A stretch of 64,000 nt of DNA from NCBI GenBank assembly GCA_024516035.1, contig CM044961.1:3338702-3402701 (forward strand). The letters run 5' to 3'. Every line of letters starts with the position of its first letter. Position 1 is the first letter of the stretch. Source of the DNA: Bactericera cockerelli. Taxonomy: Eukaryota; Arthropoda; Insecta; Hemiptera; Triozidae. Of this stretch, positions 6,101 to 48,130 are shown piece after piece. Below the pieces are notes generated by a model. It made no database searches and had not been told where the DNA came from. It saw nothing but the letters and a program-made list of their open reading frames with translations. The position numbers and the translations under genes are program-made.

Positions 6101-9100
6101 GGGGCTTGACTACGGGGGCGTGGCCAGGGAGTGGCTCTATCTTCTGTCTCACGAGATGCTCAACCCCCAGTACGGCCTGTTCCAGTACTCTCGCGAGGAT
6201 AACTACACGCTGCAGATCAACCCCGACTCTGGCGTCAACCCGGTGAGTGAACTCTTTGATTATTATTAGATGGGCGTGGCTAGAAGGCGTGGCTTAAACT
6301 TATGCTCAACCCCTAGTACGGCCTGTTCCAGTACTCTCGCGAGGATAACTACACGCTGCAGATCAACCCCGACTCTGGCGTCAACCCGGTGAGTGACCTC
6401 TTTGATTATTATTAGAGGGGCGTGGCCAGGAGGAGTGGCTTAATCTTAGGCTCAACCCCCCAGTACGGCCTGTTCCAGTACTCTCGCGAGGATAACTACA
6501 CGCTGCAGATCAACCCCGACTCTGGTGTCAACCCGGTGAGTGACCTCTTTGATTATTATTAGAGGGGCGTGGTTAGAAGGATGTTATTAGAAGGGCGTGG
6601 TTAGAAGGAGTGGCTTAATCTTATACTCAACCCCCAGTACGGCCTGTTCCAGTACTCTCGCGAGGATAACTACACGCTGCAGATCAACCCCGACTCTGGT
6701 GTCAACCCGGTGAGTGACCTCTTTCTTTTTTGTAAGCTTTATTAGGTAGAACAAAAATATATACATATAGTAAAATAGAATGAAATTATAAAGAAAAACA
6801 ATAAGATTAAGCAAAGATACAGGGGAAAAAAGAGAATGAAGTTAATGTCCTACCTAAAGGGCGGGGTTATTGCCTCTTCCACCCAACCCTTTGATTATTA
6901 TTAGAAGGGTGTGGCTAGAAGGAGTGGCTTAATCTTATGCTCCACCCCTAGTACAGGCTGGTCCAATACTCTCGCGAGGATAACTACACGCTGCAGATCA
7001 ACCCCGACTCTGGCGTGAACCCGGTGAGTGAACTATTTTTATTAGAGGGGCGTGGTTAGAAGGATGTTATTAGAAGGGTGTGGCCAGAAGGAGTGGCTTA
7101 ATCTTATGCTCCACCCCCAGTACGGCCTGTTCCAGTACTCTCGCGAGGATAACTACACGCTGCAGATCAACCCCGACTCTGGTGTCAACCCGGTGAGTGA
7201 CCTCTTTGATTATTATTAGAGGGGCGTGACTAGAAGGATGTTATTAGAAGGGCGTGGTTAGAAGGAGTGGCTTAATCTTATGCTCCACCCCTAGTACGGA
7301 CAGTACTCTCGCGAGGATAACTACACGCTGCAGATCAACCCCGACTCTGGCGTGAACCCGGTGAGTGAACTCTTTTTTTTTGTAAGCTTAATTAGGTAGA
7401 ACAAAAATTTATACATATAGTAAAATATAATGAAATTATAAAGAAAAACAATAAGATTAAACCAAAGATACAGGAAAAAAAAGAGAATGAAGTTAATGTC
7501 CTACCTAAAGGGCGGGGTTATTGCCTGTGGCAATCTCTTCCACTCAACCCTTTGATTATTATTAGAGGGGCGTGGCTAGAAGGAGTGGCTAAATATTATG
7601 CTCAACCCCCAGTATTCTCGCGAGGATAACTACACGCTGCAGATAATAATAATACTCTTTAGTGGAAGGTAACCCCATTCCACACATTATTGCTATATAA
7701 TACTGCAATATCGTTTAAAACATCAGTTTTTAACATCTCAGTACACCCCTACATGACAAAGGGAAGATTTTGCCAAATTTCAAGCCGTTGTGTCCACCCG
7801 TTTCGGCAACTACAATCAATAATAATAAAACTCTTTAGTGGAAGGTAACCACCAGGCGAGGTTAATGCTCAAAGTATTTTCTACCACCTAACCATCAGAG
7901 TCTTATTATTATGTGGTCACAAACTCAAATTAATGAGGAAAAATTCATGCACTGTGTGGGATTCGAACCAACGAATCATTACGCCGCCTGGATTACCAGG
8001 CTAGTGCGTTAACCACTTGACTACCAGTGCAGGTATAGAAATTTCTATAAGATATAGAATGTATTGTTTTCGGTCGGTTTTTTTTCTTTTCAGAATTGAG
8101 CTGATAATATTTCTGCTTTAATTTCGGTTTAACATCGCTTTCAACTGCATGGTCATATCACGACGGGGGTGTTACCCTCCATTCGCAAGAAAATCACAAA
8201 CTTGCTACCCACATTAACCACACCCAGCCTGTGTTGGGCACTTGGGCCGGAATGCCATCATTACGCTACCTGGATTATCAGACTAGTGCGTTAACCACTT
8301 GACTACCAGTGCACCTACATATATCTAATAACTTCCGTTCCCCCCCAGGAGCACCTGTCCTATTTTCACTTCGCGGGTCGCATCATAGGCATTGCCGTCT
8401 TCCACGGCCATTACATCGACGGCGGATTCACCACGCCCTTCTACAAGATGCTGCTGAACAAGCCGATCACACTCGAAGACATCGAGGGCGTCGATCCCGA
8501 ACTTCACCGAAGTTTAACCTGGATATTGTACGTATTATTATTATTATTATTTTACACTTTATCTCTATATATAAAACAGAAAAAAGGACTACCTACCTAT
8601 GTTTGTTTGTTTGTCCGGAGTTGTTTAGCCAAAACGGTAAGAGATAGCGAAAAATGTCTCAGAATTGACCCCCCCAAAACCATTATCGCTTTGTCCAGAA
8701 AAATCTTATAACTAGATCTTATAATGTACAAAACAAATAATTTTTATTATTTAACAATGAAAAAAAAATGGAAACAATATATACAATAAACATGAAAAAG
8801 AATAGAAATATATATAAAAAAAAATATGTTCTAACTAAAGGGCGGGGTTATTGCCTATGGCAATCTCTTCCACCCAACCCCTAGTGCTTTTTTTGTATAC
8901 CAACTGCGCTCGACTTTTTTCCTGTAATTAATTGTATATTGTAAATTGACTCACCGTGGCCGAGTGAGTTAGCGCGCTAGGCTTTGCACGCACGGTGACC
9001 TGGGTTCGATCCCCAGCGGGACAGGATTTTTTCTGCTCTGTACTTGGGTGTTCAGGGTCCGCTCATGCCTCGTGAGGAAAAATGAGTAGCTGCTTTAATG

Positions 9101-47618: not shown

Positions 47619-48130
47619 TAAGTCCGTGTCCAACAGTGTGACGAACTCGAGATGATAAAACTCCGTGTCCGTGTGAGATGGGCGCACATAGCTACCCACC
47701 TCCCTGTGTGGGTGAAGAATTATACGGACGCCCAGATCCAACAGTGTGACGGACTCCAGATGATAAGTCCGTGTGAGATGGGCGCACATAGCTACCTCCT
47801 CCCTGTGTGGTTGAAGAACTATACAGACGCCCAGATCCAACAGTGTGACGGATTCCAGATGATAAGTCCGTGAGATGGGCGCACATAGCTACCCACCTCC
47901 CTGTGTGGGTGAAGAATTATACGGACGCCCAGATCCAACAGTGTGACGGACTCCAGATGATAAGTCCGTGTCCGTACATAGCTACCTCCCTGTGGGTGAA
48001 GAACTGTACGGACGCCCAGGTCCAACAGTGTGACGGACGCTAGATGATAAGTCCGTGTCGGTGAGATGGGCGCACATAGCTACCTACCTCCCTGTGGGTG
48101 AAGAACTGTACGGACGCCCAGGTCCAATGT
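47595..48130 (+). repeat. Tandem array following the Tango10 stop
   Basis: Units of about 90-110 bases: ACAGTGTGACGGACTCCAGA, TGATAAGTCCGTGTGAGATG, GGCGCACATAGCTACC, CTCCCTGTGTGGGTGAAGAA, TATACGGACGCCCAGATCCA. Five to six units, some shortened. It begins with the last codons of exon 9. Confidence 0.92.

Follow-up and report, generated by a model that had tools for sequence, protein, structure and literature searches.

This locus raises the question of whether small tandem duplications are drawn to the edges of exons, or whether they arise throughout the sequence and are tolerated where exons end. The stretch of DNA that was analysed, hereafter the window, covers 64,000 nucleotides (G000:C7:3338702-3402701) and lies within a 38.2-Mb contig of a 565-Mb assembly. 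The original prediction was that repeats in two of its genes, Smurf and Tango10, repeatedly include a splice junction or a coding end.

Smurf is a plus-strand gene that reaches 20.3 kb. Its HECT domain was similar to the structures of SMURF1 and SMURF2 (best E 3.5e-183), and among the best 120 of 3123 matches the closest proteins were two from Diaphorina citri (88 and 87% identity); judged by this protein homology, the genome very probably belongs to a psyllid (jumping plant louse). A minus-strand frame (34245-36341) matched telomerase Cajal body protein 1, which is WRAP53 (E 3.1e-95). The exon at 44916-45131 matched the TRAF domain of BTBD17 and the frame at 61635-61997 matched BTB_2, which fits the names Tango10 and inc, respectively, that these two genes had been given. 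We take a 1008-codon frame (10065-13091) in a Smurf intron to resemble the protein of a non-LTR retrotransposon, with endonuclease and reverse transcriptase. Three tRNA-Thr-like predictions in the window (868-950, 2289-2373, and 13628-13712) are probably SINEs; AAT runs and sequence similar to these elements adjoin several arrays.

The repeats found by TRF and by self-matching at or near exon edges of Smurf and Tango10 were the following:

6156..7674, plus strand, Smurf exon 4 donor array (TRF 6156-6724 and 6898-7375, self-matches to 7674)
14793..15006, plus strand, TATTC-type microsatellite at Smurf exon 7, no exon edge inside (TRF)
18160-18275 and 19103-19218, plus strand, Smurf exon 8 acceptor duplication (self-match, 116 bp, 92% identity)
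19526..20101, plus strand, Smurf exon 9 acceptor repeats with about 5 exonic nt in common (TRF, self-match)
20236..20801, plus strand, spaced duplications around the Smurf stop codon (self-match 20236-20307 / 20730-20801)
40933..42373, plus strand, Tango10 exon 7 acceptor array, units of 39 bp and about 150-217 bp (TRF, self-match)
45105..45203, plus strand, Tango10 exon 8 donor array spanning the junction, 48 bp × 2.1 with 100% matches (TRF)
46265..47411, plus strand, Tango10 exon 9 array, 75 bp × 15 (TRF)
47596..48127, plus strand, Tango10 coding-end array, 98-bp unit (TRF, self-match)

Four of the eight splice-junction cases that had been proposed to contain an exon edge were found to span the junction: the Smurf exon 4 donor, the Smurf exon 8 acceptor, the Tango10 exon 7 acceptor and the Tango10 exon 8 donor. 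In the exon 4 donor array (units of 146-174 bp), the unit consists of the exon tail (87 nt), the donor and the start of the intron, and is repeated into the intron; the intact exon end is the first copy, and seven more copies of the tail were detected by BLAST. The two copies at the exon 8 acceptor have an offset of 943 bp and are thus spaced rather than head-to-tail, with the intact exon start in the second copy (19103-19218). At Tango10 exon 7, the last copy of the array continues into the exon. The reading frame is shifted inside the repeated part of this last copy (42240-42450), which is an assembly error, a variant or damage. One case, Smurf exon 9, is marginal, as its repeat pair ends at 20101, 5 nt beyond the junction at 20096. 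The remaining three do not contain an edge: the Smurf exon 7 microsatellite stops at 15006, 4 nt short of the acceptor junction at 15010; the Tango10 exon 9 array stays 3 nt clear of the junction at 47414 and contains no exon sequence; and the proposed echoes of the Smurf exon 6 donor amount to a weak 32-bp × 2 repeat (13719-13781, 87%) that adjoins the tRNA-like element at 13628-13712. The repeats proposed at both coding ends exist as listed above.

The claim that WRAP53 and inc are free of such arrays is uninformative, because WRAP53 is one 699-codon open frame without splice junctions, and inc was seen as one exon; the WRAP53 frame itself contains a 36-bp × 2 repeat (35988-36058). Random minisatellites had been argued to hit junctions only rarely; as posed, this was wrong, since duplications take up 12% of the window and 15% of the wider locus. 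Arrays in the window without contact to a known exon include those at 4888-5095, 39221-39321, 45190-45393, 49177-49251, and 63535-63635 (TRF), and arrays of this kind were also common in the upstream stretch and in the genes sampled below.

A second, near-identical copy of Smurf with edge arrays of its own was found 58-65 kb upstream in the same orientation (window 1603-29682 compared to G000:C7:3280793-3302725). Several other genes are also present twice within a short distance; for Tango10, no second copy was found within the 80 kb compared. The upstream copy (A) and the window copy (B) differ at 39 of 1752 positions (2.2%) over nine coding exons, all nine of equal length, and their HECT peptides are identical. 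In spite of this, at least 6 of 21 shared edges are unlike in repeat number. Counted as occurrences of an exact motif, and with exon labels C2 and WW that are our own assumption, the edges compared as follows:

Acceptor of the QRLDLCK-encoding exon: 8 in A, 1 in B
Donor upstream of the window: 1 in A, 15 in B
Donor of the WW exon: 6 in A, 1 in B (in B, another diverged match lies 506 bp off)
Acceptor of exon 3: 2 in A, 1 in B
Acceptor of the exon at the left end of the window: 1 in A, 2 in B

In addition, the exon 4 acceptor carries a 53-bp × 3 array in A that was not found in B, and one donor has been expanded differently in the two copies, by 71 bp × 15 in B and by about 108 bp × 3.5, slightly downstream, in A. 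The exon 4 donor array is present in both copies, and the C2-exon donor array has four exact motifs in each. The C2 stretch is also present in P0012, a predicted Smurf of Diaphorina citri. In this protein, the beginning of the last Smurf exon is repeated, and so is a short segment at another place, a type of repeat that was absent from the two other D. citri proteins. It may point to edge duplication of this kind in a second psyllid, or to a mistake in assembly or annotation.

The arrays, or their copy numbers, might be artefacts of the assembly or of two haplotypes placed side by side, and the occurrence of Smurf and several other genes twice within a short distance, as well as the shifted frame in the last Tango10 exon 7 copy, would agree with this. 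We consider it very improbable, as units inside the arrays are diverged and interrupted by other sequence, the exon 4 and C2-exon donor arrays are common to both Smurf copies, and the same type of array is found in many unrelated genes.

Since the window had been picked for its arrays, exons were sampled by protein family, namely chaperonins (PF00118, 68 matches) and kinesins (PF00225, 85 matches). The sample analysed comprised 57 chaperonin exons in 21 contigs and 40 kinesin exons (97 exons, 194 edges, and 124,779 bases). Kinesin exons were taken approximately in order of E-value, single-exon and sister matches being excluded by eye, and one locus (L097) was visible as a row of repeated matches before selection. 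Two contigs that are sisters of others (C1:46341744 and C3:26617854) were excluded from the circular-shift and founding-unit tests described below, and the sister genes at C3:37.25-Mb and C3:37.51-Mb were both retained. Several of the chaperonin and kinesin genes occur twice on one chromosome. A local duplication spans 14 of the 194 edges, seven in each family. Units that could be read across a junction included:

L101, edge-spanning: 70 bp, 45 nt of exon and 25 nt of intron
L104, edge-spanning: 52 bp, 39 nt of exon and 13 nt of intron
L048, array of about 0.9 kb: 51 bp, 14 nt of exon and 37 nt of intron
L062, kinesin acceptor: 52 bp × 7, 15 nt of exon and 37 nt of intron

A single kinesin gene (C1 63.2-Mb) carries the spanning arrays L101, L104, and L062 together with an abutting array, L053. 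Its sister copies differ from it in part: L110 has one copy of the L062 unit at about 97-98% identity, L111 has at least 6.4 copies compared to at least 4.3 in L101, L112 has 5.0 compared to 5.6 in L104 (in L101, L104, and L111, the array runs off the end of the sequence analysed), and L109 equals L053 in number. Among the chaperonins, L028 has a 119-bp duplication across a donor, two copies in all, where its sister L030 has a single copy.

In the arrays inspected, the intact exon comes first among the copies at a donor and last at an acceptor, which is the position that tolerance requires. The copies of Smurf exon 4 in B showed eight nonsynonymous and five synonymous differences and two stops, with indels in two of seven, and those in A showed 20 nonsynonymous and 15 synonymous differences and four stops, with indels in four of 12. 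Such changes give no support to a role of the Smurf exon 4 copies as working decoy exons. At three other edges, the exon and its copies differed mostly by synonymous changes (nonsynonymous/synonymous 0/10, 0/5, 2/10, and 3/4). Such a pattern is expected if the constrained exon itself changed, and constraint on the copies would also be possible. Retention of the copies for a function, as alternative exon ends or extra splice sites, would agree with these synonymous differences and with the recognisable donor and acceptor sites kept in the copies, though the independent sites are few and change in a constrained exon looks alike. We regard it as the least credible of the explanations considered here, because stops and indels are present in the exon 4 copies, sister copies differ freely in copy number, and unit lengths such as 146, 71, 70, and 52 bp are not divisible by three.

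Slippage driven by GC-rich exon edges had been offered as a cause. It is unsupported, as arrays away from edges are not GC-rich: 25 such arrays had a mean GC difference of 0.000 from the rest of the sequence (P 0.72), a set that includes the edge-spanning L048, the removal of which shifts the mean by about 0.003. Around Smurf and Tango10, 26 arrays had a mean GC of 0.369 compared to 0.372. The other suggested cause, cutting at the junction, fits poorly, as the junction sits at any phase of the units read (exon/intron 45/25, 39/13, 14/37, and 15/37 nt). Six arrays come to within a few nt of a junction (L039, L053, L069, L085, and those at Smurf exon 7 and Tango10 exon 9 in the window), and because of these, breaks at the junction may account for some arrays. 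In two-copy repeats, the overlap at the joint was 0-2 bp in 7 of 21 and 4-18 bp in 14 of 21.

Whether edges are spanned more often than by chance was found to depend on how an array is counted. Pairs offset by less than about 50 bp escape BLAST-based pair finding, as happened with the 48-bp Tango10 repeat, and TRF arrays were therefore added to the test of the window and the wider locus. By coverage, 3 of 21 edges in the window were spanned compared to 2.46 expected (P 0.42), or 4 compared to 2.77 with offsets up to 1000 bp (P 0.32), and for both Smurf copies and Tango10 together 12 of 47 edges compared to 7.2 (P 0.068). The comparison with shuffled positions that had been proposed as a check was run by circular shifts on 90 kb of chaperonin genes and gave 6 of 98 edges compared to 5.8 expected (P 0.53), with 16 of 114 chaperonin edges left out for want of a scorable splice site. 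Of 178 edges, 13 were spanned, compared to 96 of 1148 pseudo-edges drawn from four null sets (16/360, 12/280, 10/116, and 58/392). Intronic portions of edge arrays are present in these null sets, and the fourth also includes exons of the second Smurf copy. Mean coverage was 8-11% from 25 nt on the exon side of an edge to 300 nt beyond it, 6-7% between 300 and 1000 nt out and 3-4% beyond 1 kb (the outer bins being drawn from 26 loci), and 3.5% at 50-100 nt inside exons; L024, L026, L041, and L046 were excluded from this profile.

Coverage is, however, a poor null, because an array that starts at an edge grows into the intron, where it adds to the coverage. Each array was therefore also collapsed to one founding unit. 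Counted automatically, founding units spanned 12 of 157 edges compared to 3.2 expected. A first hand curation gave 13 compared to 4.35 (P 9e-5; chaperonins 6 compared to 2.69, kinesins 7 compared to 1.66, and 10 compared to 3.94 without the C1 kinesin gene). A second gave 14 compared to 3.79 (P 1e-5; chaperonins 7 compared to 2.75, P 0.013; kinesins 7 compared to 1.04), with L071 counted as spanning since the acceptor had been seen inside a copy during the first. In both curations, the length of each unit and whether it spans an edge were settled manually, once the sequence had been inspected. The second-curation excess lay in arrays with copies at least 95% alike (12 compared to 2.18), and there was none below 95% (2 compared to 1.61), a split that relies on the best pair per array and so favours many-copy arrays. 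By a simpler measure, the median identity of the longest pair was 96.7% for edge arrays (n = 13) compared to 91.8% for others (n = 23; P 0.078). Edge arrays thus look younger, not older, which argues against the idea that they are merely detectable for longer owing to a constrained exon copy. The outcome hinges on the definition: there is no significant excess by coverage, and there is an excess in the wider exon sample by founding unit.

The founding-unit excess would be expected if, in this lineage, small tandem duplications really did arise preferentially at exon-intron junctions, a mutational hotspot to which transcription, chromatin edges or paired nicks might contribute, with copies of splice sites arising fast and getting lost later. 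The excess was present in both families and persisted without the kinesin gene having three spanning arrays (11 compared to 3.38), and both the younger appearance of edge arrays and the different expansions at one donor of Smurf A and B point the same way. Against this stand the coverage tests, and restriction to contigs of at least 3 kb left 4 compared to 1.58 (P 0.065; 3 compared to 1.52, P 0.19, in the first curation). The size of the excess is also uncertain, as units were hand-set, short exon-centred windows lose intronic pairs, several arrays sit in one gene, and transposable elements, which dilute introns, were left unmasked. The excess of young arrays at edges may therefore reflect either a real hotspot or small curated samples. 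With no specific mechanism indicated, we hold a hotspot to be possible, though rather unlikely. If it did exist, about 7% of the sampled conserved edges would be straddled by a mostly recent unit, often of 50-140 bp, and introns might conceivably grow by copying their own borders, accumulating variable rows of decoy splice sites.

The explanation that we favour, as a probable one, is that small tandem duplication is frequent in this genome and tolerated at exon edges, with no need for machinery directed to splice sites. We infer that units of about 30-250 bp would arise often, in introns and at exon edges alike. The likeliest origins would be replication slippage, or breaks that form where the two strands are nicked close together and that are then filled in and end-joined; the arrays would afterwards expand and contract by unequal exchange. 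A duplication across an edge would leave one complete exon and splice site, the spare half-exons falling in the intron, and would be nearly harmless; a duplication inside an exon would be removed by selection. This explanation is supported by the commonness of off-edge arrays, by an edge coverage equal to the shifted null and by the drop in coverage inside exons. It is further supported by the coding exons of Smurf A and B, which are intact although their edges differ, and by the sister pairs L062/L110 and L028/L030. Joints of 0-2 bp fit fill-in and end-joining, a route that requires Pol alpha-primase and CST, in some cases, and slippage or growth within an array may explain others. It does not explain the moderate excess of young spanning units, strongest at 95% identity or more, and the overlaps of 4-18 bp exceed what plain end-joining needs, though several of them lie in larger arrays. 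On the whole, the arrays exist and change fast, the original prediction overstated them, and it is suggested, rather than proven, that exon borders attract copying.

If duplication does favour exon edges, it would provide a simple and ongoing route to longer introns and to spare splice sites beside intact exons, and the process could be followed by comparing two gene copies within one genome. Even if the rate is no more than background, partial exon copies at 14 of 194 edges could mislead gene prediction and short-read assembly; the exon repeat in D. citri P0012 may be an error of this kind.

Minisatellites consist of units, tens to hundreds of bp long, that follow one another head-to-tail in variable copy number. 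By TRF, the psyllid arrays were likewise head-to-tail repeats, apart from the spaced Smurf exon 8 acceptor pair, and copy number differs between near-identical gene copies within one assembly, be they alleles or paralogues. Unlike minisatellites in general, the psyllid unit includes an exon end and a splice site. Unlike in tandem exon duplication with alternative splicing, where a complete exon and both of its splice sites are copied, there is only one exon end per unit (L048, L062, L101, L104, and Smurf exon 4). A dispersed element or introner is a further contrast: with the Smurf exon 4 region as query, matches among the best candidates were confined to the two Smurf copies (13 places), which applies to that array. 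Small tandem duplications that arise by break fill-in and end-joining have been described (PMC8355091). Those at hand are similar in being short direct copies, some with 0-2-bp joints, in introns and at exon edges, but they form long arrays, gather at exon edges in some genes and have most joints above 2 bp. Tandem duplication of an AGGT-bearing exon segment with splice signals is described as a way in which introns are gained (PMC4974935, PMC2891723). Here, too, a local exon duplication carries splice signals and the protein can stay unchanged; however, the psyllid unit joins an exon end to the start of a pre-existing intron, so that introns lengthen rather than arise. A further similarity is to human duplicated genes in which internal tandem repeats at exon-intron boundaries are variable (PMC2812944), and where repeat number also differs between gene copies. 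That report concerns genes in human segmental duplications with altered splicing, whereas the arrays described here lie in ordinary conserved insect genes with intact coding exons. Among the open-licence PMC papers listed by our searches, no report was found of frequent junction-spanning arrays in an insect. Compared to these known systems, it is the frequency and the youth of the junction-spanning arrays that stand out.
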